Of a stretch of 59,168 nt of DNA, positions 7,121 through 42,284 are shown in pieces (the first letter of the stretch is position 1; every line of letters begins with the position of its first letter). Under the pieces are notes generated by a model. It made no database searches. It worked only from the letters and a program-made list of their open reading frames with translations, and had not been told where the DNA came from. Origin of the DNA: Balnearium lithotrophicum (lineage in GTDB: Bacteria > Aquificota > Aquificia > Desulfurobacteriales > Desulfurobacteriaceae); the NCBI RefSeq assembly GCF_900182585.1, contig NZ_FXTM01000012.1, positions 1 to 59,168 on the forward strand, written 5' to 3'. The translations under genes were made by a program, and so were the position numbers.

Positions 7121-8397
7121 AAAAGGGATATCTCAAAACGCTCTTCTTTGGGTTCATCTTTATTTTTCTGTTTTTAGTTGGAAAAACAACTCTATCCTCT
7201 GCCGTTGACTCCAACGAAAGTGAGCTAAAGTACATAAGGCTCTTTATGGAGGTGTACCAGCTTGTTAAGGAGAGGTACGTCGAGGAGAAAAAGCCGAAGG
7301 AGCTCTTTGAGGGCGCAATAAAGGGGATGCTGAATAGATTAGACCCCCACTCCACCCTTTTTACTCCGGACCAACTTAAGGAGTTTCAGATAGAGACCTC
7401 AGGTGAATTTGGAGGTCTTGGAATACAGATTACAAAAACGAAGGATGGAAAGCTCTTAATTATTGCTCCAATAGAGGATACACCTGCCTACAGGGCTGGA
7501 ATAAAGCCAGGGGACATAATTGTCAAGATTGACGGTAAAGATGTTACTCCCGATATGAGCCTCTCTGAGGCTGTAAAAATTATGAGGGGTAAGCCGGGAA
7601 CGAAGATAACAATCTGGATATGGAGAAAAGGGTGGTCTGAACCCAAACCATTTACGATAACAAGGGCCGTTATAAAGATAAAGAGCGTTAAGTACAGAAT
7701 GCTCCCCGGCGACATTGGATATATAAGGTTTACGATGTTCCAGAGGAACTCTGTTGAAGAGTTTAAGAAGGCTTTGGAACATTTAAGGAAGGATAAGGAG
7801 CTCCAGGGAATAATCGTTGACGTAAGAAACAATCCTGGAGGACTTCTTGACTCTGCCGTTGCTATAAGTGACTACTTCCTACCAAAGGGTAAACTTATCG
7901 TTTATACAAAAGGTAGAATTCCTGAAAGCATCAAGAAGTACTACTCCCTAAATCCTCCAATTATTCCTACAGACATTCCCGTTGTTATGTTGGTTAACGG
8001 TGGAACTGCAAGTGCTGCCGAGATTCTAACTGGAGCCCTCAGGTACAATAACAGGGCCATAGTAGTCGGAGAAAAGACATTCGGAAAGGGTTCCGTTCAG
8101 ACCCTCTATCCTTTAGACATGGGTTACGCTGTAAAGATTACAACTGCCAAGTACTACATGCCCAACCATAAGTGTATAGATGGAAAGGGAATAGAGCCAG
8201 ATATCGTGGTTAAACTTTCAAAGAAGGACATTGAAACCCTTAAAAGTGAGTTTAAGGAGATGGAGGAGCACCCAGAAAAAACCGAGGAAATAAGGAAGAA
8301 ACAGGAGAAGAGAATAGACAACCAGTTAAGGAGAGCTATAGAGGTAATCAAGGAGATTCACCTAATAGAGAAAATGGAGGGTAAGAAGGCATCTTGA
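7117..8397 (+). CDS. Carboxyl-terminal processing protease (S41 family)
   Basis: 426 residues. A periplasm-facing serine protease that trims or degrades proteins from their C-terminus. An N-terminal membrane anchor or uncleaved signal (about residues 8-22) is followed by a PDZ domain (about 98-180, FGGLGIQI...AYRAGIKPGDIIVKI) and the S41 core. The core contains the catalytic Ser-299 in VNGGTASAAEI and Lys-324 in EKTFGKGSVQT, with DVRNNPGG at 235-242. The tail is charged and partly helical. The start overlaps the transketolase stop (ATGA). The substrate is unknown. Confidence 0.93.
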   Translation: MKKGYLKTLFFGFIFIFLFLVGKTTLSSAVDSNESELKYIRLFMEVYQLVKERYVEEKKPKELFEGAIKGMLNRLDPHSTLFTPDQLKEFQIETSGEFGGLGIQITKTKDGKLLIIAPIEDTPAYRAGIKPGDIIVKIDGKDVTPDMSLSEAVKIMRGKPGTKITIWIWRKGWSEPKPFTITRAVIKIKSVKYRMLPGDIGYIRFTMFQRNSVEEFKKALEHLRKDKELQGIIVDVRNNPGGLLDSAVAISDYFLPKGKLIVYTKGRIPESIKKYYSLNPPIIPTDIPVVMLVNGGTASAAEILTGALRYNNRAIVVGEKTFGKGSVQTLYPLDMGYAVKITTAKYYMPNHKCIDGKGIEPDIVVKLSKKDIETLKSEFKEMEEHPEKTEEIRKKQEKRIDNQLRRAIEVIKEIHLIEKMEGKKAS

Positions 8398-9014
8398 TAT
8401 TCACCCTTCACGGCTGGAGCTTTGATAGGAGGGTTTGGGAAGGAACTCTCTTTGAAAAAGGAATACACTTGGAGCTCCCCGGTCACGGGGAGTCTCCATT
8501 TAAATCAAGAAAATTAGTTGAGCTCTCAGAGGAAATCGGGAAAATTCTCCCTCAAAATTCAGTTTTGGTTGGATGGTCCTTAGGTTCTACCGTTTCCCTT
8601 TTAATTTCCCACCTATTTCCGGAGAAAATTGAGGAAATCCACCTATTTTCACCTACCCTCAAGTTTTCTGGAATTTCTCAACCGAAGGTCGTAGTTGAAA
8701 GGTTTATCCGAAAACTCAGGAGAAACTTTAAGAAAACCGTTACTGAGTTTAGAGGGCTCTGTTCAAATGAGAAGTCCCCTCTACCAAACTTGGAGATAGA
8801 AACTTCAACGGAACTACTTATAGATTTCTGTCATTTTGACTTAACTCCTTACGTAAGGGGAATCTCTCAGCCCGTTAAAATCTTTGTTGGAGAAAGGGAC
8901 AGAATAACAGGATTGGAGGGAGCTCTCTCACTGTTTAAAAATTTAAAAAGAGCTGAACTTTTGGTTTTTCCCGATGCAGACCACCTTACCGTTCTGGGGA
9001 AACTTTCCTCCTGA
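8394..9014 (+). CDS. Alpha/beta hydrolase, BioH-like
   Basis: 206 residues. The start TTG overlaps the ctpA stop (TTGA). A compact alpha/beta hydrolase with oxyanion motif LHGWSFD (5-11), nucleophile elbow GWSLGS with Ser-62, Asp-169 (GERDRI) and His-197 (DADHLTV), so the catalytic triad is complete. Length and layout resemble BioH, the pimeloyl-ACP methyl ester esterase of biotin synthesis, but no other biotin gene is nearby, so the substrate is uncertain. The 3' end overlaps the convergent rapZ gene by 29 bases. Confidence 0.75.
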   Translation: MIFTLHGWSFDRRVWEGTLFEKGIHLELPGHGESPFKSRKLVELSEEIGKILPQNSVLVGWSLGSTVSLLISHLFPEKIEEIHLFSPTLKFSGISQPKVVVERFIRKLRRNFKKTVTEFRGLCSNEKSPLPNLEIETSTELLIDFCHFDLTPYVRGISQPVKIFVGERDRITGLEGALSLFKNLKRAELLVFPDADHLTVLGKLSS

Positions 9015-9873
9015 TTCCCTGTTCCCTGTGCTCTACAAAAATCTCAAACTGAGGAAATTCCTCAGCCACCCTTTTAGAAAGGGCCTCTGCAAAGACAACC
9101 GACCTGTGCTGACCACCTGTACAGCCAACTGCATAGGTTATGTAGGCTTTTCCCTCGTTCTCGTAGAGGGGAATTGTTGTTTTGACGAATTCTAAAATTA
9201 TCTGAAAGATTCTCTTTGACTCCTCATGCTTCATTACAAACTCCTCGACCTCCCTGTCCATTCCGGTTTTTGGTTTTAGTTCAGGAATAAAGTGGGGATT
9301 CGGGAGGAACCTTACATCAAAAACGTTATCGGCAGACTGGGGAATACCGTACTTAAACCCAAAGGATAGAAAGTTTATCTTCAGCTGAGGTTTTCCCGTT
9401 TGAAGTAATTTTTTTATGAGTTTCTTTAGGTCGTGGTAGTTGAGGTTTGACGTGTCAATTACCTTATCAAAGTACTCCTTTAGCTCTCCATAAAGTTTCT
9501 TTTCAAGCTCTATCAGCTTCTCAATACTTTCTCCTTCGTAGTACTTTTCAAATGGATGGGGTCTCCTTGTTTCCTTAAATCTGTTTATCAGAATGGAGTT
9601 ATCGGCGGTAAAGTACCAGATTTCAACGTTTGGATACCTCTCCTTGAGCGATGTAAAGAGCTCTTTCGCTCTCTTCCTAAACTCAGGGTTTCTAACATCA
9701 ACAACTAAAGCCGCTTTTTCAACCTCAGGACTCTGCTCTATTAGGTTCATAATTTCAGGAACAAGGGAAGGAGGTACGTTATCGATGCAGTAAAATCCCA
9801 AATCCTCTAAGTGTTTCACTGCACTTGATTTTCCTGCTCCAGCTTCTCCCGTTAAAAGTATTACCTTTTTCAC
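8986..9873 (-). CDS. rapZ: RNase adapter / nucleotide-binding protein RapZ
   Basis: 295 residues. P-loop GEAGAGKSS (about 9-17) replaces the more usual GxSGAGKS. The RapZ family core is clear: FYCIDNVPPSLVPE, the RxRRPHPF-like TRRPHPF, KYGIPQSADNVFDVRFLPNP, and the C-terminal GCTGGQHRSVVFAE that senses small ligands or RNA in the family. In enterobacteria RapZ guides RNase E to the GlmZ small RNA; in other bacteria the partner is unknown. It is the last gene of a four-gene minus-strand operon and overlaps its upstream neighbour by 4 bases. Confidence 0.93.
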   Translation of the reverse strand: MKKVILLTGEAGAGKSSAVKHLEDLGFYCIDNVPPSLVPEIMNLIEQSPEVEKAALVVDVRNPEFRKRAKELFTSLKERYPNVEIWYFTADNSILINRFKETRRPHPFEKYYEGESIEKLIELEKKLYGELKEYFDKVIDTSNLNYHDLKKLIKKLLQTGKPQLKINFLSFGFKYGIPQSADNVFDVRFLPNPHFIPELKPKTGMDREVEEFVMKHEESKRIFQIILEFVKTTIPLYENEGKAYITYAVGCTGGQHRSVVFAEALSKRVAEEFPQFEIFVEHREQGIRRKVSPER

Positions 9874-10667
9874 TTCCCTATCTCCATAACCCTTACTCTG
9901 TTCATGTAGAATTCAGGAACAAAAAGTTTACCCTTGTAATAACCTATATCTGCCGGTGATATTAATCCCGAAGCTACAAGCTTAACTTTACCATTCTTCA
10001 AACTGTAAATCTTTCCAGCAGAAAAGTCTGAAAAGAGAATTGTCCCATCTTCAGTAACAACAACCCCATCAAGGTTCTCAAATCCCGAAGCTAAAACCTT
10101 TATCTCTCTGTTTTTGTCAACCTCTAAAACCTTACCTCCTCCCCAGCTTACAACAATCATCCTTCCATCTGGAGTAAATGCTATCCCGTTGGGACCCTCC
10201 AACTTGGAGCTCCTTAAAAACTCCTTAACAGAATAGGTTTTACCATCGATTTCATAAATGGTATTTGTTTGAGTATCTGAGACGTAAACCTTTCCCTTAA
10301 AAGAGCAAGAATCGTTTAAGAACTTTGCTCCAGGAATTTTTACCTCCCTTTCAAACCTTCCACTCTCTGGGTCTGCAACGACAACCCTATCTATGTCCGT
10401 AACAAAGAGCTTTCCGCTACAGAAGGTTACCCCTTTGGGAGCGTTAAGCCCTGTAACAAACTTAAGTTTCTCAACCTTTCCGTTTAAATCTGCAAGTGCG
10501 ACAAATCCATCCCCGTCCTTTTTATCAGGAGGTAGGTTGCCGATGTTTGAAATGTAAATGTGACCTTTATAGTACTGTGCACTTTCAGGGGTTTTTAATC
10601 CCTGATTTATGTTGAACAGAAAAACAACGGTCGTTAAAAATAGCGTAAACCCTGCCACTATCCCCAT
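9870..10667 (-). CDS. Membrane-anchored SMP-30/NHL-like beta-propeller protein
   Basis: 265 residues. One N-terminal membrane segment (about 2-20) followed by repeated beta-propeller blades of the SMP-30/gluconolactonase or NHL type: APKGVTFCSGKLFVTDIDR, LNDSCSFKGKVYVSDTQTN, GPNGIAFTPDGRMIVVSWGGG, LDGVVVTEDGTILFSDFSAG and a last PADIGYYKGKLFVPEF blade. The domain should lie outside the inner membrane. Catalytic metal ligands of gluconolactonases cannot be assigned confidently, so a binding or assembly role is as likely as enzymatic activity. It overlaps nadK upstream by 10 bases and rapZ downstream. Confidence 0.7.
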   Translation of the reverse strand: MGIVAGFTLFLTTVVFLFNINQGLKTPESAQYYKGHIYISNIGNLPPDKKDGDGFVALADLNGKVEKLKFVTGLNAPKGVTFCSGKLFVTDIDRVVVADPESGRFEREVKIPGAKFLNDSCSFKGKVYVSDTQTNTIYEIDGKTYSVKEFLRSSKLEGPNGIAFTPDGRMIVVSWGGGKVLEVDKNREIKVLASGFENLDGVVVTEDGTILFSDFSAGKIYSLKNGKVKLVASGLISPADIGYYKGKLFVPEFYMNRVRVMEIGK

Positions 10668-12262: not shown

Positions 12263-13333
12263 ATGGATTTAGTCGAAAAAGTGATAAGTGGAGAAAGAAT
12301 CAACGAGAAAGAAGCGTTGGAACTTCTAAGGAACTTTGACCTATTAACGTTAGGACATCTTGCAAATTACGTTAGAAATAGAATCCACCCTGAAAGGGAA
12401 GTTACGTTTGTCATAGATAGAAATATTAACTACACAAACATCTGCATATGTAAGTGTAGGTTCTGTGCCTTTTACAGGGAAAAGGGAGCTCCCGATGCCT
12501 ACGTTATAGACAGAGAAACCCTAAGGGAAAAGATTAGAGAAACAGTTGAGTTAGGCGGTACTGCAATCTTACTCCAGGGAGGGCTTCACCCAGACCTCAA
12601 AATTGACTACTATGAAGAACTCCTCTCCTTTATAAAAGAGGAGTTTCCACAGATTCACATCCACGGATTTTCTGCTCCAGAGATTGTTCATATCTCGAGA
12701 GTTTCTAACCTCTCCATAGAGGAAGTAATAGAAAGGTTAAAGAGGGCTGGACTCGGTTCAATTCCTGGAGGAGGAGCCGAAATTCTGGTTGATAGAGTGA
12801 GGGAGAGGATTGCCCCTAACAAGGCAAAAACAGGGGAATGGTTAAACGTTCATAGAACTGCCCACAGGTTAGGACTGAGGACGACTGCAACAATGATGTT
12901 CGGAAGTTTAGATACTGACGAAGATATTGTTGAACACTTGAGGGTTGTAAGGGAGCTTCAGGATGAAACTGGAGGATTTACTGCATTTATTCCTTGGAGT
13001 TACCAACCTGACAATACGGAGCTTGGAAGGGTGGTTAAGGAGAAAGCAAGTGGAGAAAAATATTTAAGGGTTTTAGCCGTATCGAGAATTTATCTGGACA
13101 ACGTTGAAAATGTTCAGGCTTCATGGGTTACTCAAGGAGGAAAAGTTGCTCAAGTGGCACTAAAGTTTGGAGCTAACGATTTTGGCTCTCTGATGATAGA
13201 GGAGAACGTTGTTGCAGCTGCAGGTGTCAAGTTCAGAATGCCACTTTCAGAAATAGTAAGGCTCATAAAGGATGCAGGTTTTACTCCTGTTCAAAGGGAT
13301 ACATTATACAGAAAAGTTAGATTTTTCTATTAG
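12263..13333 (+). CDS. mqnC: Cyclic dehypoxanthinyl futalosine synthase (radical SAM)
   Basis: 356 residues. A radical-SAM enzyme of the futalosine route to menaquinone; it cyclises dehypoxanthine futalosine. The 4Fe-4S motif is C61-x3-C65-x2-C68 followed by AFYR. The preceding VTFVIDRNINYTN and the later IPGGGAEIL and RTTATMMFG motifs match MqnC better than MqnE or the F420 enzyme CofH, which are related. ATG has AAGGAGAG upstream. It stands alone with its own promoter; no other menaquinone gene is in the window. The last 30 bases overlap the convergent PilZ gene. Confidence 0.92.
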   Translation: MDLVEKVISGERINEKEALELLRNFDLLTLGHLANYVRNRIHPEREVTFVIDRNINYTNICICKCRFCAFYREKGAPDAYVIDRETLREKIRETVELGGTAILLQGGLHPDLKIDYYEELLSFIKEEFPQIHIHGFSAPEIVHISRVSNLSIEEVIERLKRAGLGSIPGGGAEILVDRVRERIAPNKAKTGEWLNVHRTAHRLGLRTTATMMFGSLDTDEDIVEHLRVVRELQDETGGFTAFIPWSYQPDNTELGRVVKEKASGEKYLRVLAVSRIYLDNVENVQASWVTQGGKVAQVALKFGANDFGSLMIEENVVAAAGVKFRMPLSEIVRLIKDAGFTPVQRDTLYRKVRFFY

Positions 13334-13915
13334 AATCTCCTTTACCTGTTTTACATAATTTTTAACCAGGTAGTTCAACAAATTAAAACTTGAACTTTCT
13401 ATTTTACACCCTAATATAACTCCACTCTTTTCCTCTTCTCTTCTTAAAACTCTAAGGGTTAGTATTTTACTTCTATGCTGAAGAGTTAAAACTTGATTCG
13501 GTTTGATATCTACATTCTTTTCAAAAAAGAGTTTAACTCCACCTAAACTCATATCAAGTATGAATGCGTCTATATTTAATTCCAAAACTTTAAATTTCTC
13601 CTGTATACAGACAGCTATTCTTTCAAATAATCTTTTTTCATCTAATACTTCATCATCAAGAGTAATTACATGAACAATATTGTTTATTATTTCTTTAATT
13701 CTTGCTCTCAGCAATCTCTTGGTTCTTTTTTCATCCTTGTAGATATAAAATTCTTTATTTAGAAGAATTTTCTCAACTCCTGGAGGAAGAAAATTGAAAG
13801 CTTTTATAGTATTATCCGACATCTCTAAAACATCAAAACTTAGAAGAATAGGTAGAGTTATCTCTACTTCATTTAAACAACTAATTTTTTTATAAGTTAC
13901 TCCGTCCAATCTCAT
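13304..13915 (-). CDS. PilZ-domain c-di-GMP receptor protein
   Basis: 203 residues. The C-terminal half is a PilZ domain with both c-di-GMP motifs: R95-x3-R99 (KRLFERIAV) and D121-x-S-x-x-G (DMSLGGVKL). The N-terminal 90 residues form a YcgR-N-like beta-rich region (PGVEKILLNKEFYIYKDEKR). The ATG directly follows the stop codon of the chemoreceptor gene (TAA ATG), so the two are co-transcribed and probably translationally coupled. This suggests that c-di-GMP modulates output of the receptor or of the motility machinery. The effect itself is inferred. Confidence 0.8.
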   Translation of the reverse strand: MRLDGVTYKKISCLNEVEITLPILLSFDVLEMSDNTIKAFNFLPPGVEKILLNKEFYIYKDEKRTKRLLRARIKEIINNIVHVITLDDEVLDEKRLFERIAVCIQEKFKVLELNIDAFILDMSLGGVKLFFEKNVDIKPNQVLTLQHRSKILTLRVLRREEEKSGVILGCKIESSSFNLLNYLVKNYVKQVKEILIEKSNFSV

Positions 13916-15718
13916 TTATTCTTCCTTCATCTTTTCGATGATTTCCTCAAAATTCTCTATAACAGTTTCAATAAGGCTTTCGAATTTTTCAAAGTCCTTT
14001 TCTTGTAGTTCCCTCCTCTTAATCTTGTTAAATATCTCCTTAGCAGTGTTAAAGGTTAACGTTAGGTTCTCCTCAAGGTTGTTTATCGACTCAGAGAGTT
14101 TCATGTTCTTGATAAATTTAAGCCTCTTTACAATCCAGTCCTTCAAGGGAGACTGGTCAAAATCCAAGAGGACAGGATTTTCTAAAGCGTTTGGTAGCCT
14201 TGCAAGCCAGTCAGAAAACAGTTCAATACCTTCAATAACAACTGACAAATCTCCAATATTAAAGTAAGAAATATTTTCATGAACTGTTTTAACAGATGAC
14301 CTTGTTCTGATTATCTTTTCTTGAAGCTTTTTAAATACGTTTTGGAATCTCGAAACTTCTGTATTTATAGTCGATATATTTTCCCTAACAGTATCGAGAG
14401 CCCCGACCTGTTGATTTATAGAAAAGAGCACCTTGTTTGTAACTTCAATTAAGGACTCTACAGATGCCCTTATTCCTTTGAGAACTTCCTCTGTTCTTGC
14501 CATTTCAGACTTAACTTTTATAGCCTCAGAAGCCCTTTCTTCCAAATCGTTAGAGAAGGACTCAATAAGGGATATTATCGTGCCCACTATATTACCTATC
14601 TCTTCAGCAGAGGAAACAGTTCTTGAAGCTAACTTTCTAACTTCCTCAGCTACAACTGCAAAACCTCTTCCTGCCTCACCTGCCCTTGCTGCCTCTATAG
14701 CTGCGTTAAGGGCAAGGAGATTGGTTTGGTCAGCAATTCCTTTTATAGTTTCAACAACATCCTGTATTTTGACAGAACTTTGCTGAAGTTCCTCTATTCT
14801 CTCCTTCAATCTTATAACCTTATCAGCTAAAAGCTGAACATCGTTGACAGAACGGGAAACAATTTCCTTCCCTTTTTCAGTTTCCTTGTCAACTCTCTTT
14901 ACCTCTTCGGAAGAGGTATTAATAAGCCTGTTAACATCAGAGATAGACTCGGCCAAAACTTCCGATGAAATGGAAAGCTCTACGAATTTTTCATGGATTT
15001 CCTTGTTTCTCAAATCTGTATTGAAAAGCTCGGCAACTAAGAAGCTTGCATCACTGGAAACTTTAGATGAAAGAGCCTCAAGTTCCTTAAAGGTTTCTCT
15101 AATCCAGTTGAGAAATCTATTGAACTCTGAAGCGAGTTCTCCTAGTTCGTCCTGTTTTTTAACATTAAGTTTTTGGGTTAAGTCTCCCTTCTCTATTTTC
15201 TTCATCGTTTCTATCATTTCACTTAGGGGAGCAACTATAGCTCTGTAGGTACTTAGAGCTCCAATTCCTATAATAAACAGGCTGAAGAGAGGAATAATTC
15301 TTACTACAGTTGCTGCCAACGAAAGTACAGAGTCTGCACTCTGCTCTATGTTTTTTTCAATGTTCAGAAGCTCTTTTTCTATTAAAGCTATATCCTTCTC
15401 AATTTGTGAAGCTGGAGCTCCATTTACCAATTTTGAAATGATAGAAAGGGTTGTTGTGTATGCATTAACCACTTCGGGAGAGGAAAATTTGGATAATTCG
15501 TTAACTTTCTCCTCCAAAATTTTTGCAGCTTCACTTCTCTTGTTCTGTTCAAGTAGAACCTCTACCTTAGGTAAACTCTTTTCTACACTTTCTATAACTT
15601 CTGCTTTTTGATTTATCTCTTTATATTTCTCTATTTTGTGGTAAGCAAACTCAGTAAGAATTAGAATAATTAAAACTTCTATTACAAGAGACACCACCAA
15701 TTTTGTTTTTATTCTCAT
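13916..15718 (-). CDS. Methyl-accepting chemotaxis protein with degenerate CZB-like tail
   Basis: 600 residues. TM1 about 7-25, a short helical periplasmic region, TM2 about 138-158, HAMP (about 160-212), then the coiled-coil signalling domain with the invariant hairpin tip around residues 327-357 ([18 protein letters not shown]...). The last 120 residues after the signalling helix resemble a CZB zinc-sensing domain (FSDWLARL...[11 protein letters not shown]...[16 protein letters not shown]). The usual His/Cys ligands are all replaced, so zinc sensing is unlikely. No pentapeptide CheR tether is visible. It probably feeds CheA/CheW encoded elsewhere. It has its own promoter and is followed immediately by the PilZ gene. 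Confidence 0.92.
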
Positions 15719-35923: not shown

Positions 35924-37249
35924 ATGGAGCTTTACGATGTTGTGGTAGTTGGAGGAGGACCTGCAGGTTTCAATGCAGTTAAAACGATAAGGAGTGTTTA
36001 TCCTGAAAAAAGGGTCTTACTGGTAAACGACAGAGAAGACCTTCAAATTCCCTGTTCTATTCCCTACGTCGTTTCAGGGAGAATTCCCGTTGAAAAGAAC
36101 AGGTATCCCCTTGAAAAGGTCAGGGACTTGGGAGCTGAACTGAAGATAGACAGGGTTGTTTCAATTAACCCAAACAGTTCTCAGCTCTTCCTTGAATCGG
36201 GGAAAATCGTATCGTACGAGAGGCTAATCCTATCAACGGGTTGGGTTCCAAGGAGGTTGAACCTTGGAGAGGAAAATTTGGAGGGAGTCTTCTACATAGA
36301 CACATCAACAGAAGGGGTTTCAAGAATAAAGGAGGAGGTTGAAAAGGCCGAAAGGATAGTCATCATCGGAGGAGGTTTCATTTCCATAGGATTTGCAGAC
36401 CTGATAAGCAGGAAGTTGGGGAAGAAAATCACCGTAATTGAGGCATCAAGTAGGATAGCCTCCGGGGCATTCTCCTCAGAAATTACCTCTGAAATGGAGG
36501 AAAAACTCAAATCTCAAGGTGTTGAAATTTTAAAAAATGAGAAGGTTTCATCCTTTGAGGGAAACGGAAGGGTTAAAAGGGTTGTTATTTCCGATGGAAA
36601 GGTCGATGCAGACTTAGTTTTAGTATTTGTTGGATTTCTTCCAAATACAAAACTTGCCGTTGACTGCGGTATAGAGACGGAGAGGGGATTTATAAAAACC
36701 GACTCCTACTTAAGAACCTCTGTTGACAACATTCTCTCTGCAGGAAACTGCACCTTCCACAGAAGTGCAATTGACGGTGAGTTTACCCCTGGAATGGTTG
36801 CATCCGTCTCTGCAAGGGACGGAAGAATTGCAGGTTTAAACGTTACCGGGCCGAGAGTTGAGGATAGGGGAATTGTCCTTGCCGGAATTACTGAGGTTGG
36901 AGGAATATTCTACGGCTTCTCAGGTTATACAGAGGAGCTCCTCAATAGAAAGGGCTTTATCTTCAAGAAAGTTTCAGTTGAATCCTCAGACGGCTACCCT
37001 TCTGCAATCGGAGCAAAAAGCCTAAGGTTAAACCTCTACTTCCTCAAAAACGGAAGGCTAATCGGTGGGGAGGTTGTAGGGAGCTCCAAAATCGTTTCCT
37101 CCCTCGTTGATTTAATTTCAAAGCTAATTGAAGGGGGTGAAAGTGCCGAGAGAATCGCATCTATGAACTCAGTTGCATTTCCACCTGTAACGCCTCCTCC
37201 TCTGCTTCAGCCACTACAGGAGGGAGCTCTAAAATTCCTGACTTCTTGA
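35924..37249 (+). CDS. FAD-dependent pyridine nucleotide oxidoreductase (CoA-disulfide reductase/NADH oxidase-like)
   Basis: 441 residues. FAD motif VVVGGGPAGFNA at the N-terminus, second dinucleotide motif IVIIGGGFISIGFA, a redox Cys in IPCSIPYVVSG (the single active-site Cys position of the CoA-disulfide reductase group), an SAGNC segment and a C-terminal dimerisation domain ending VAFPPVTPPPLLQPLQEGA. The substrate could be CoA disulfide, oxygen, polysulfide or elemental sulfur; a sulfur-reducing host would make sulfur reduction attractive, but sequence alone does not decide. No rhodanese domain is attached. Confidence 0.8.
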   Translation: MELYDVVVVGGGPAGFNAVKTIRSVYPEKRVLLVNDREDLQIPCSIPYVVSGRIPVEKNRYPLEKVRDLGAELKIDRVVSINPNSSQLFLESGKIVSYERLILSTGWVPRRLNLGEENLEGVFYIDTSTEGVSRIKEEVEKAERIVIIGGGFISIGFADLISRKLGKKITVIEASSRIASGAFSSEITSEMEEKLKSQGVEILKNEKVSSFEGNGRVKRVVISDGKVDADLVLVFVGFLPNTKLAVDCGIETERGFIKTDSYLRTSVDNILSAGNCTFHRSAIDGEFTPGMVASVSARDGRIAGLNVTGPRVEDRGIVLAGITEVGGIFYGFSGYTEELLNRKGFIFKKVSVESSDGYPSAIGAKSLRLNLYFLKNGRLIGGEVVGSSKIVSSLVDLISKLIEGGESAERIASMNSVAFPPVTPPPLLQPLQEGALKFLTS

Positions 37250-37257
37250 GGTGCTCT

Positions 37258-38127
37258 TTGAAAAAGGTTGCTGTTGTTGATATCGGTTCGAATACGGTTA
37301 AGCTCTTTATCTACGAGGTTAAAAAGAGGAAGATAAGAAAGGTCTTTTCAGAATCTGTCTATCTGAGACTCCTGAAACACGTTAAAAACGGGAGGCTATC
37401 AGAGGAAGGAATAGAGGAGCTCATCCTAACCCTGAAAAGCTTTAAGAGGAGAATTGAGGAGTTCAAACCCGACTGTACATTTGCAGTAGGAACGTTTGTT
37501 CTGAGGTCTGTTGAGAACTGTAGTGATGTTCTGAGAAGAGTGGGGAAAATTTTTAAAGTTGAAGTCCTATCAGGGGAGGAGGAGGCCTACTACTCTGCCC
37601 TTGGAGCTCTCCTTGACGTTAAGTTAAAAGAGGGGCTTCTCTTTGACATAGGGGGAGGAAGCTTAGAGGTCTGCGAGATTCTTGATAGGGAGCCTAAAGG
37701 GTGTAAAAGTTATCCCCTTGGAACTCTCTCCTTTGGAGATTCAGTTGTTAACGGAGTCGTTAGGGACGAAAGGAGAATTAGGTGGCTCGTTAGACACTAC
37801 GTTAACCCTTACGACTTTGAATTTAGTGAGAGTCCGTTTCTCGTGGGGGTAGGTGGAAGCATCAGAGCTCTAAAGAAAATCTCAAAGAGGAGGAGAATAA
37901 AGAGGAAGGCTCTCAAAGGTATTGTCGAAAAGCTCCTGAAGATGAAACCTGAGGAAATCTCCAAGGAGTACGGAATAAATCTTAGCAGAGCTCAAACCGT
38001 TACAGTTGCAGGGTTAGTTGCCTTAGAGCTCATGGATATATTTAAGTGTAAGGAGCTCATAATCTCAAAGTACGGAATCAGGGAAGGTCTTGTCTACAAG
38101 AGGGTGGTCTTGGATGGAGAGTGTTAA
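37258..38127 (+). CDS. ppx: Exopolyphosphatase / guanosine pentaphosphatase (Ppx/GppA)
   Basis: 289 residues from TTG 37258, chosen because GAGGTG is 4-5 bases upstream; an upstream TTG at 37246 has no such site. Actin-like ATPase fold: VDIGSNTVKLF, VLSGEEEAYYSALGAL, LLFDIGGGSLEVCE, GVGGSIRAL. Only the N-terminal phosphatase half is present; the C-terminal HD domain of long Ppx is absent. The ppk gene follows at once, supporting a polyphosphate role. Confidence 0.87.
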   Translation: MKKVAVVDIGSNTVKLFIYEVKKRKIRKVFSESVYLRLLKHVKNGRLSEEGIEELILTLKSFKRRIEEFKPDCTFAVGTFVLRSVENCSDVLRRVGKIFKVEVLSGEEEAYYSALGALLDVKLKEGLLFDIGGGSLEVCEILDREPKGCKSYPLGTLSFGDSVVNGVVRDERRIRWLVRHYVNPYDFEFSESPFLVGVGGSIRALKKISKRRRIKRKALKGIVEKLLKMKPEEISKEYGINLSRAQTVTVAGLVALELMDIFKCKELIISKYGIREGLVYKRVVLDGEC

Positions 38128-40117
38128 GTTTGAACCAAAGCTCTTTATAAACAGGGAGCTCTCCTGGCTTGAGTTTAACAAGAGAGTTTTAGAGGAGTCC
38201 GAGGATGAGTCTAACCCCCTCCTTGAGAGGTTAAAGTTCATCGCAATTTTCTTCACAAACCTTGATGAGTTCTTCATGATAAGGGTTGCCGGATTGAAAA
38301 AGCAGGTTGAGGCCGGAATAAACAAACCTTCCTTTGACGGCCTAACCCCAAGGGAGCAGCTTAAGAAAATTTCAAGAAAGACGAGGGAGCTCCTGAGACA
38401 GACAGAAAAGGACTACAACACCCTTTTAGGACTGCTCAAGAGTGAGGGAATCAGAATCTATAAGTACAGAGAGCTCCCCAAAAGGCTTAAGAGGAAGGCA
38501 GACAGTTACTTTGAGGAATTTGTATTTCCGATACTTACTCCTCTTGCCGTAGACCTTACCCACCCCTTTCCCCACCTTCCATCGCTCTCATTCAACATCA
38601 TTGTCGAAATGCTCTCAAGGGAGCTGAGGTTTGGAATCATTCCCGTTCCTAAAGTCCTTCCGAGGTTTGTGAAGTTGGAGGAGGGGAGCTACGTCTATTT
38701 GGAGGACCTGATAATAAACAACGTTCAGGAGCTCTTCCCACAGCAGAGAATAAGGGAAGCAACAACGTTCAGAGTCACAAGGGACGCAGATATAGTCATT
38801 CAGGAGGACGAGGCAGACGACCTCTTAGAGGAGGTTGAGAAGGGACTCAGGAAGAGGAGATTTGGAAAACCTGTAAGACTTGAAATAAGCGGAGGAACGG
38901 AGCTAACACTTTCCTACCTTAAGGACGAGTTGGAGCTCTTGGATGAAGATATATACCCGATGAAAATTCCTCTGAACCTTTCAGACCTGTGGAAACTCTA
39001 CAGGGAGATTGACAGGCCTGACCTTAAGTTTCCTCCACACGTTCCCTACTATCCTCCCCAGTTTGAGGTTGAAGTGTTTTCGGCAGTAAAGAGTAGAGAT
39101 TCTGTTCTCTTTCACCCTTACGAGTCCTTTGACCCGGTGGTGGAGTTGGTTGAAGAGGCCGCTGAGGACCCGAACGTCCTTGCAATAAAGCAGACACTCT
39201 ACAGGGTTGGGAGGAACTCCCCGATAGTTGAGGCTCTGAGCAGGGCTGCCCAGAACGGAAAGGAGGTTACGGCAGTCGTTGAGCTCAAGGCAAGGTTTGA
39301 CGAGGAGAGCAACATAGTCTGGGCTAAAAAGCTTGAGGAGGATGGAGTTCACGTTGTTTACGGAGTTCCAGGTTTAAAAACCCACGCTAAGCTCCTCATG
39401 ATTGTCAGGAAGGAGGAAAATGGAATTAAGAGGTACGTTCACCTTGGAACGGGAAACTACAACGTTGAAACGGCGAAAATTTATTCGGACGTAAGCTTCC
39501 TCACTGCAGATGATACGGTCGGTGAGGACGTATCAAGAATCTTCAACGTCATAACGGGGTACTTCCACCCTCCATCACTAAAAAAACTCTACATGTCCCC
39601 TATAAACCTAAAGGAAAAAATAGTTTCACTGATAAGGGAAGAGGCAGAGTTGGGTGAGGAGGGGAGGATTGTTGCAAAGATGAACTCGTTGGTTGACCCT
39701 GAGGTGATATCGGAGCTCTACAGGGCATCAAGGAAAGGAGTGAAGATTGACCTGATAGTCAGGGGAATCTGCTGTTTGAGGCCTGGAATTAAGGGGGTGA
39801 GTGAAAACATAAGGGTCATAAGTATTGTAGGAAAGTACTTGGAGCACGCGAGAATATTTTACTTTAGGAGGGGAGATAGGGTATTTATAAGCAGTGCAGA
39901 CTGGATGCCGAGAAACTTCCACAGGAGGGTTGAAGCCCTCGTTCAGATAGAGGATAAGAAGTGCAAGGAAAAGCTGAAGAAAATTCTGGAGATTCAGCTA
40001 AAGGACACGGCGAAGGCGAGAATCCTACAGAGCGATGGAACTTACGTTAGATACGAAAAGAGAGACTTCAACTCACAGGAGTACTTGGAGAGATGGGTAA
40101 GAGAGTTTTCCTTGTAA
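38114..40117 (+). CDS. ppk1: Polyphosphate kinase 1
   Basis: 667 residues from ATG 38114 (AGGGTGG upstream), overlapping the ppx end by 14 bases. Synthesises polyphosphate from ATP via a phosphohistidine. N-terminal FINRELSWLEFNKRVLEE, then the catalytic core with VYGVPGLKTHAKLLMIVR carrying the phosphorylated His and YVHLGTGNYN, and a second PLD-like motif in the C-terminal domain (SSADWMPRNFHRRVE). Membrane-associated in other bacteria. Confidence 0.95.
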   Translation: MESVKFEPKLFINRELSWLEFNKRVLEESEDESNPLLERLKFIAIFFTNLDEFFMIRVAGLKKQVEAGINKPSFDGLTPREQLKKISRKTRELLRQTEKDYNTLLGLLKSEGIRIYKYRELPKRLKRKADSYFEEFVFPILTPLAVDLTHPFPHLPSLSFNIIVEMLSRELRFGIIPVPKVLPRFVKLEEGSYVYLEDLIINNVQELFPQQRIREATTFRVTRDADIVIQEDEADDLLEEVEKGLRKRRFGKPVRLEISGGTELTLSYLKDELELLDEDIYPMKIPLNLSDLWKLYREIDRPDLKFPPHVPYYPPQFEVEVFSAVKSRDSVLFHPYESFDPVVELVEEAAEDPNVLAIKQTLYRVGRNSPIVEALSRAAQNGKEVTAVVELKARFDEESNIVWAKKLEEDGVHVVYGVPGLKTHAKLLMIVRKEENGIKRYVHLGTGNYNVETAKIYSDVSFLTADDTVGEDVSRIFNVITGYFHPPSLKKLYMSPINLKEKIVSLIREEAELGEEGRIVAKMNSLVDPEVISELYRASRKGVKIDLIVRGICCLRPGIKGVSENIRVISIVGKYLEHARIFYFRRGDRVFISSADWMPRNFHRRVEALVQIEDKKCKEKLKKILEIQLKDTAKARILQSDGTYVRYEKRDFNSQEYLERWVREFSL

Positions 40118-40592: not shown

Positions 40593-42284
40593 ATGGATAT
40601 TGACCTTTCTCAGCCTTTTGAACTTGCCGAGGATGTTTTTTGGGTTGGTTATTACGTTCCAAACGACCCATTCCAGTGCCACGTCTATTTAATAAGGAAC
40701 GGAGAGGAGAGTATCCTAATTGACCCCGGAAGTATGATAACTTTCCCTGTGGTTCTTGAAAAGATTTTTAAATTAACAACTCTCAGAAATATAAAGTACA
40801 TAATAATGCACCATCAGGACCCAGACATCACAGGATGTTATCATACCCTTGAGTCCCTTTTTCCTAAAAACCAACAGAGATTTATCGTTACTCACTGGCG
40901 TACAAAGGTTCTTTTGAAACACTACATGTGGAAAACGCCTTTCTACCTAATAGACAAACAAGATTGGAAACTCAAAGCCGGTGATAGAGAACTTGAATTT
41001 ATTTTCACTCCCTATGCTCACTTTCCAGGGGCTTTTTGTACTTTTGATAAAAAAACAAAAGTTTTGTTTTCCAGCGATATATTTGGAGCCATTTCGGACA
41101 AGTTTTTCCTGTTTGCTGTTGATGATGAGGAGTACTACAAGGGAGTGGAGCTCTTTCACAAACACTACATGCCAAGTAGACACATTCTGAACTACGCCTT
41201 AGACAGAATTACCGAGAAGAACCCTGAAGTAATAGCCCCTCAGCATGGAAGTATCATAAAGAAGGATATGATTGATAGAGTAGTCAAACGGTTGAGAGAT
41301 TTAGACTGTGGACTGTATCTTTTAGATGAAAAGGTTTCAGATATAGGACTTTTACAGAAGTTAGACGAAAAGCTTAAAACTCTGTTTAAGAAGATTCTCT
41401 CATCATCGGAGTTTGCCGATATCTTGAGGTTCCTATTCCTAACGTTGAAGGAGGAAATTCCCGTTGAAAGGATTGTAGTAGTTAGCGAAAGACTAAAAAA
41501 TGGAAAATTCCTAAAGATAGAGATAACTGAGGATTCTATAAATGAAAAGACCTTGAAAGAACTGAACCTTAGTGAATTAGAAAAGGGAGAAGGATTTTCC
41601 TGGGAGGAGGCTCTCGAAACCGATAAGAAGATAGGACGTTTAATCTTCATTTTTAAAAACAAGGAACTAAGTCAGTTTGAAAGGGAGTTCCTTAGGCTTT
41701 TAATAAAACACGTTAAGTATCCTTTAGCAGCAAGTTTTGAGAGAAAAATAACTTTTGAGCTTTTAGAGGAGGAGAAGGAGCTCCTTTTGAAAAAGGCCAT
41801 AACTGACCCATTAACAAAACTGTACAACAGAAATTACCTGTTTAGTTACCTAGAAGAAATGATACCTAAATCTAAGGAGCACGGATTTCCTATTTCCCTT
41901 GCTGTCATTGATATTGATTTCTTCAAACGAATTAACGATACCTACGGCCATTTAATTGGTGACTGTGTTTTAAAGGAGCTCTCAAGTATTTTATCCCACA
42001 GTTTTAGGGCAAATGACTGTGTTGCAAGGTACGGTGGAGAGGAGTTTGTTGTTGTTATGCCCTTTAGTACTCTTCATGATGCATGTAAAAAGTTAGAGAA
42101 GGTTAGAGAGCAGATAAAGGAGCATGTATTCTGTAAGTCGGAAAATAGGAGTTTGAAGGTTACCGTAAGTGTTGGTGTAACCGAGTATAGGGACTCTATG
42201 TCGATAGAGGAATTTATAAAGAGGGCTGACGAGAACCTGTACGAAGCAAAAAGAAGCGGAAGGGACAGGGTTATCTGTAAGTAA
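40593..42284 (+). CDS. Di-iron (ODP/flavodiiron-type beta-lactamase) sensor-diguanylate cyclase
   Basis: 563 residues from ATG 40593 (GGAG 6 bases upstream). Residues 1-225 are a metallo-beta-lactamase domain of the oxygen-binding di-iron type: HHQDPD (73-78), H101, H143, D162 (SSDIFG) and H218 (QHGS) could hold two irons as in flavodiiron proteins, but the flavodoxin domain is missing. A helical and GAF-like linker follows (about 235-385). The C-terminal GGDEF domain has an active-site GGEEF at 481-485 and an intact inhibitory R-x-x-D (472-475). The protein is predicted to make c-di-GMP in response to oxygen or NO. No membrane segment. The signal is inferred from ODP chemoreceptors. Confidence 0.85.
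   Translation: MDIDLSQPFELAEDVFWVGYYVPNDPFQCHVYLIRNGEESILIDPGSMITFPVVLEKIFKLTTLRNIKYIIMHHQDPDITGCYHTLESLFPKNQQRFIVTHWRTKVLLKHYMWKTPFYLIDKQDWKLKAGDRELEFIFTPYAHFPGAFCTFDKKTKVLFSSDIFGAISDKFFLFAVDDEEYYKGVELFHKHYMPSRHILNYALDRITEKNPEVIAPQHGSIIKKDMIDRVVKRLRDLDCGLYLLDEKVSDIGLLQKLDEKLKTLFKKILSSSEFADILRFLFLTLKEEIPVERIVVVSERLKNGKFLKIEITEDSINEKTLKELNLSELEKGEGFSWEEALETDKKIGRLIFIFKNKELSQFEREFLRLLIKHVKYPLAASFERKITFELLEEEKELLLKKAITDPLTKLYNRNYLFSYLEEMIPKSKEHGFPISLAVIDIDFFKRINDTYGHLIGDCVLKELSSILSHSFRANDCVARYGGEEFVVVMPFSTLHDACKKLEKVREQIKEHVFCKSENRSLKVTVSVGVTEYRDSMSIEEFIKRADENLYEAKRSGRDRVICK

Follow-up and report, generated by a model that had tools for sequence, protein, structure and literature searches.

The closest described relatives of the protein discussed here are the oxygen-binding di-iron proteins (ODPs) of Treponema denticola (6qnm, 6r9n) and Thermotoga maritima (6qrq, 6qwo). 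The T. denticola ODP is a stand-alone protein that works with a chemoreceptor, according to the available text of PMC7666581, and the title of Muok 2019 presents it as a sensor of both Fe(II) and oxygen. In the T. maritima ODP, the third His of motif 2 is replaced by a Gln at motif 5, as stated in the accessible part of PMC7785958. ODPs “fused with signal transduction domains” were already grouped by Muok 2019, according to a passage of the TREND paper (PMC7319448); ODP and GGDEF domains are each known, and fusions of ODPs to signaling domains have been reported as a kind. The subject of this analysis is one such fusion, encoded by a gene at 40593..42284 (+) in a 59,168-nucleotide stretch of DNA from the thermophilic vent bacterium Balnearium lithotrophicum (contig NZ_FXTM01000012.1, positions 1 to 59,168, hereafter the window). 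Its sensor shares the Pfam family PF19583, the fold and the Gln-for-His ligand set of the solved ODPs, but unlike the T. denticola protein, it is fused to a GAF-like and a GGDEF domain.

Bhr-DGC of Vibrio cholerae follows the same principle, with a non-haem di-iron sensor placed N-terminal to GGDEF. However, the fold of that sensor, a hemerythrin, is unrelated to ODP, and no hemerythrin domain was found in a Pfam scan of the window protein. The diferrous form of Bhr-DGC is 10 times more active (PMC9388753, available part). DgcO/DosC, BpeGReg and PdeO/DosP, which are globin-coupled or PAS-haem proteins, also feed O2 into the turnover of cyclic di-GMP (c-di-GMP), as listed in the accessible portion of a 2022 census of c-di-GMP sensors (PMC8846402), but they use a haem cofactor and sensor folds unrelated to ODP. 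The same portion of the census describes O2-sensing cyclases and phosphodiesterases that use haem or hemerythrin, and it makes no mention of “ODP”, “lactamase” or “Muok”. No experiment on an ODP cyclase was found in searches of open-licence papers in PubMed Central. If ODP cyclases do sense O2, an additional di-iron chemistry, carried on a lactamase fold, would feed c-di-GMP signaling in organisms that oxygen poisons or that take it as a gradient cue.

The window protein is intact and 563 residues long. Its gene starts with an ATG at 40593, 6 bases 3′ of a GGAG motif that can serve as a putative ribosome site, and ends with a stop at 42282-42284, exactly as in the original prediction. A Pfam scan matched ODP at residues 27-219 (E 5.9e-60; 202.9 bits against a curated cut-off of 27.2; profile positions 1-194 of 194) and GGDEF at residues 402-559 (E 6.8e-44), values that exclude chance matches. 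A full-length AlphaFold2 (AF2) model, built from 58 sequences (pLDDT 93.6, pTM 0.71), matches ODP structures in its N-terminal part and PleD-type GGDEF domains in its C-terminal part, which bears out the predicted fusion. As had also been claimed, flavodoxin is lacking: none was found in the Pfam scan, nor is it among the 8 Pfam families matched by the 58 members of the alignment described below. The description of the protein as soluble is a fair reading, since the Pfam scan gave no membrane families and a hydrophobic start is absent, though no topology predictor was run. On balance, the fusion is probably a cytoplasmic diguanylate cyclase with an N-terminal oxygen-binding di-iron sensor, controlled by O2 via a GAF-like spacer and a helix. 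This is supported by the domain make-up, the conservation of the ligands, the predicted fold, the distribution and a history that permits one fusion event.

The ODP domain, a metallo-β-lactamase fold, spans residues 1-245 (40593..41327, +) by Pfam, sequence match to solved ODPs and fold comparison. Among solved proteins, this part is closest in sequence to two pairs of ODP sensor structures, 6qrq/6qwo (E 3.2e-27) and 6qnm/6r9n (E 1.6e-19), with flavodiiron proteins ranking below them (E 1.4e-9 and weaker). The corresponding part of the model superimposes on 6qwo_A with Z 29.4 and a root-mean-square deviation (rmsd) of 2.8 over 242 residues, on the peroxo-ODP 6r9n with Z 28.5 and on flavodiiron proteins with Z 25.5 to 28.5. 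The Pfam scan also returned a match to the metallo-β-lactamase superfamily (E 4.3e-11), as might be expected if the domain were a metallohydrolase- or lactonase-like enzyme acting on a small molecule and joined to GGDEF by happenstance. We regard this as very improbable, given that the ODP match is far stronger, that the Asp/Asp/Gln set is that of ODPs and that the nearest solved relatives are ODP sensors.

In an alignment with Moorella FprA (1ycf), the flavodiiron ligands correspond to H74, D76 (Glu in FprA), D78, I79 (His in FprA), H143, D162 and H218; the metal-ligand roles of the FprA residues are assumed here, as is the numbering of its seventh ligand as His86, the place of which is taken by I79. 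The first four belong to the motif H74-Q-D76-P-D78-I79 (40812..40829, +), equivalent to the flavodiiron H-x-E-x-D-H. H143 (41019..41021, +) and D162 (41076..41078, +) are predicted ligands from the alignment, the latter at what we take to be the position of the bridging Asp of flavodiiron proteins. The alignment also places an ODP-specific Gln and the conserved His at Q217-H218 (41241..41246, +). The earlier claim of flavodiiron-type ligands thus holds for six of the seven positions, one of them with Asp instead of Glu. It does not hold for the set as a whole, which is of the ODP type because the seventh-ligand His is missing, with Ile79 in its place, and a Gln (Q217) stands ahead of the last His.

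Flavodiiron proteins such as FprA and flavorubredoxin have a homologous lactamase-like di-iron domain, but the window protein lacks both their flavodoxin and the ligand at the His86 position, and by its make-up it is no O2 or NO (nitric oxide) reductase. From ODP biochemistry, an O2 or NO switch for c-di-GMP, as originally predicted, may reasonably be proposed. Flavodiiron proteins are O2- or NO-reducing enzymes (PMC6033852, available part), and the fused domain, as their relative, might sense NO as a reduced flavodiiron site binds it. This is improbable: the ligand set is of the ODP type (Ile79, Gln217), no NO genes were seen in the context of the fusion gene, and its neighbors are not conserved.

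The GGDEF domain (residues 402-559; 41796..42269, +), assigned by Pfam and fold comparison, carries both an active and an inhibitory site, as had been noted: the catalytic motif GGEEF at residues 481-485 (42033..42047, +; from sequence and alignment) and, by alignment, R472-A-N-D475 (42006..42017, +), an RxxD motif that we take to be the inhibitory site. D440, K445, N448, D449, D457 and K553 are also present, with presumed single-residue roles in metal or GTP binding. Judged by its motifs, the domain is complete and is a predicted cyclase.

A scan of GTDB genomes with an alignment of ODP domains, mostly fused ones, identified 229 relatives, and the 80 best were retained. Alignment A3 consists of the window protein and 57 of these 80 loci, complete ones only and thinned. 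H74, D76, D78, I79, H143, D162, Q217 and H218 are invariant in 58/58 A3 sequences, GG[DE]E[FIL] is retained in 58/58 and RxxD in 55/58. Two sister-family relatives (L011, L012) have lost RxxD. When all 80 loci and the window are counted, including four loci cut by contig ends, H74, D76, D78, H143 and D162 are invariant in 81/81 and H218 is present in 80, the one exception being a gap. Invariant columns in A3 number 38/245 in the ODP part, 0/157 in the middle and 17/161 in the GGDEF part, and the middle is the least conserved part, with a mean identity to the window protein of 0.20. Such poor conservation would suit a relic or scaffold in which the ODP or GGDEF domain is inactive. That idea is scarcely credible, since a relic would not show catalytic and metal residues kept without change, or almost so, across 58 sequences that come from many phyla. 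Besides the ligands, four other residues, C29, H101, R103 and H110, are invariant across the 58 fusion sequences.

The middle (residues 246-402; 41328..41798, +) was assigned as a GAF-like domain from AF2 models, Foldseek and VIA-align. No Pfam family, GAF included, matched these residues in the window protein, and GAF_2 was matched by one of the 58 A3 members, weakly (E 0.0059). Residues 262-395 were barely tested by the library comparison of the full model, so the assignment rests on a separate model of the middle (48 sequences, pLDDT 91.4, pTM 0.84). Its Foldseek rows at E <= 0.001 are GAF-bearing proteins, and its best VIA-align row is the GAF domain 3ci6_B (Z 11.2, rmsd 3.2, 137 residues). 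In both models, helices flank a GAF-like sheet, and a helix of 43 residues (361-403) leads into GGDEF. By these models, the middle is a fast-evolving GAF-like domain rather than a plain linker, and it may be a degenerate GAF that relays a signal instead of binding one. The top Foldseek match of the whole model is the phytochrome-activated cyclase of Idiomarina (5llw/5llx), which combines a GAF-type unit, a long coiled helix and GGDEF. However, this is a light sensor that lacks ODP, and window residues 250-562 align to it at an rmsd of 11.7 to 26.7, so the agreement is in domain order only.

We infer the iron content of the site, O2 as the signal, the direction of control and the physiological output. 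In the anoxic cell, the ODP site would hold two Fe(II). O2 would then bind as a peroxo adduct, or oxidise the Fe pair, and the GAF-like spacer and 43-residue helix would relay the resulting change in the ODP. The helix would alter the pairing of the two GGDEF domains of the cyclase dimer, so that c-di-GMP output rises or falls, and c-di-GMP would limit the enzyme through the RxxD site. By analogy with Bhr-DGC, which is more active when reduced, we lean very slightly, and with little confidence, toward the reduced, O2-free state as the active one. Alternatively, the ODP might chiefly sense the redox state of the cell or its ferrous iron supply, with iron loading or oxidation state, rather than O2 binding, setting cyclase activity. 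The naming of the T. denticola ODP as an iron and oxygen sensor in a title speaks for this, but a peroxo form among the ODP crystal data (title of 6r9n) favors an O2 adduct over simple redox. We consider this alternative unlikely, if still deserving serious attention.

Several points weigh against an O2-controlled cyclase as proposed. The double role reported for the T. denticola ODP means that O2 may not be the only signal, and the identity of the metal is not deducible from sequence. Invariant H101 and H110 set the fusion clade apart from the solved ODPs. A stand-alone ODP in the same genome lacks both of these but retains C29 and R103, so the ligand preference of the fusion clade may differ. 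The fusion is also dispensable in the group, with a full-length match in only 11/22 sampled genomes of its own family. In all, it occurs in 13/61 sampled genomes, including 2/2 of the sister family and 0/37 of the other two families. Finally, the host genome has 14 GGDEF matches (along with 4 PilZ and 2 methyl-accepting chemotaxis protein (MCP) matches), among which the fusion cyclase may be minor.

Of the best 80 of the 229 ODP relatives, 73 have GGDEF in the same frame and four are cut by contig ends. The remaining three are a short frame without GGDEF (L084), one that runs into N (L087) and an ODP-histidine kinase (L109). With a query made mostly of fused ODPs, 73/80 is not the fused share of all ODPs. 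By record titles, the 73 fusions are labelled as 12 phyla (two are without phylum), including Campylobacterota (20), Pseudomonadota (20), Thermodesulfobacteriota (7), Acidobacteriota (6), Aquificota (5) and Nitrospirota (4). Most are metagenome assemblies, and individual taxon labels may therefore be wrong. Cultured carriers include Allochromatium palmeri, Thiocystis violacea, Marichromatium bheemlicum, two Halochromatium, Thiospirillum jenense, Lamprobacter modestohalophilus and Roseospira navarrensis. The family's presence in cultured purple sulfur bacteria makes it testable without growing vent bacteria.

ODP is also found with other partners. In an assembly labelled Campylobacterales, it is joined to HisKA and HATPase_c (L109:4001-5539), and in a genome labelled Magnetobacteriaceae (that of L090), it is joined to a SpoIIE phosphatase domain (L159:1414-2976). 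Both fit a modular input domain. The latter genome additionally holds one ODP-GGDEF and one stand-alone ODP. Four other genomes of the family hold a further, divergent ODP-GGDEF type (about 40% identity; L014-L017), and in the same search they lack the window type.

Two trees of the ODP domain bear on the history of the fusion. The first, of 58 rows, contains every second fusion locus plus L084, L109 and 16 others; its rows labelled as fusions include L047 and L061, which a contig end truncates, as well as L084 and L087, in which no GGDEF was seen. In it, the GGDEF rows form one side of a branch (SH-aLRT 94), apart from the stand-alone ODPs and beside the ODP-histidine kinase L109 and the ODP-SpoIIE L159. 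For the second tree, of 97 rows, L139, L164, L167, L047, L061, L074 and L076 were dropped, and L084 and L087 were labelled as fusions. Without constraint, the tree required two changes; with the fusions held in one clade, it scored better by 9.16 log units and was not rejected (p-AU 0.729). A single origin of the ODP-GGDEF fusion is thus allowed but not shown. In the 58-row tree, the window protein groups with L035 (Desulfurobacteriaceae) and L049 (labelled Desulfofervidaceae), and the neighbors of that group are proteins of Nautiliaceae, Aquificota and Thermodesulfobacteriota. This mix of taxa suggests transfer between lineages or mislabelled bins.

More broadly, and only tentatively, ODP-GAF-GGDEF may be one ancient, widely transferred family on which strict anaerobes and bacteria of oxygen gradients (vent Aquificota, Nautiliales, magnetotactic Nitrospirota, purple sulfur bacteria and Mariprofundus) chiefly rely for non-haem switching of c-di-GMP by O2, with a ligand chemistry of its own through clade residues such as H101 and H110; we would sooner doubt this than assert it.

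The host had been described as an anaerobe, which agrees with its oxidases: no haem-copper oxidase was found in the genome (E 1e-20), and one cytochrome bd is present. Haem-copper oxidase was found in 35/37 genomes of the two families that lack the fusion versus 0/24 of its own and sister families, 21/24 of which have cytochrome bd. This contrast sets one clade against another and proves no association of the fusion with aerobic life.

The fusion gene and the genes ppx, ppk, mazG, usp and one for a sixA-like phosphatase form a run on one strand, after which come an IF-2B family gene and type II secretion K and M genes. The ppx and ppk (polyphosphate) frames overlap (37246-40117) upstream of the fusion gene in the same direction; they were dropped as partners, since their place next to the fusion is not conserved. 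Scans for promoters and terminators gave counts equal to those of shuffled sequence (10 vs 11.5 and 11 vs 11.1, respectively). In the stretches around the fusion from nine relatives, the neighbors differ, and window genes at 28-52 kb are unmatched except for the fusion itself. One GGDEF-EAL gene in these stretches matches the fusion itself, and the few other matches go to window genes elsewhere. In flanks of up to 4 kb at the 73 loci, a generic ABC ATPase forms the commonest group (10 loci); another, whose representative resembles a response regulator containing PAS and GGDEF regions and was named by eye, occurs at 5 loci. A GGDEF-EAL gene adjoins the fusion in one relative of the same genus (G001; L137:149-1618).

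The PilZ effector and chemoreceptor genes to which attention had been drawn are indeed in the window (PilZ, 13304-13915, −; MCP, 13916-15718, −), but a link to the fusion is not supported: they sit roughly 25 kb from it, on the opposite strand and adjacent to each other, and the fusion's neighbors are not conserved. The PilZ gene directly adjoins one of the genome's only two chemoreceptor genes (13304-15718, −). A place for the fusion in a chemotaxis branch, as an ODP beside a chemoreceptor gene, was likewise rejected, as its neighbors in the window are sixA-like, mazG and usp and the nearest MCP gene is the one about 25 kb off.

The stand-alone ODP of the same genome (L129:7235-8056; G000 contig C9) is not beside a chemoreceptor gene either. 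It is followed by a Roadblock/LC7 gene (8068-8448), with a gene for an Arf-like GTPase nearby on the opposite strand (9597-10094) and, by eye, an apparent membrane hydrogenase cluster upstream. This arrangement suggests a GTPase/roadblock module, and not chemotaxis, as the system to which the stand-alone ODP is linked.
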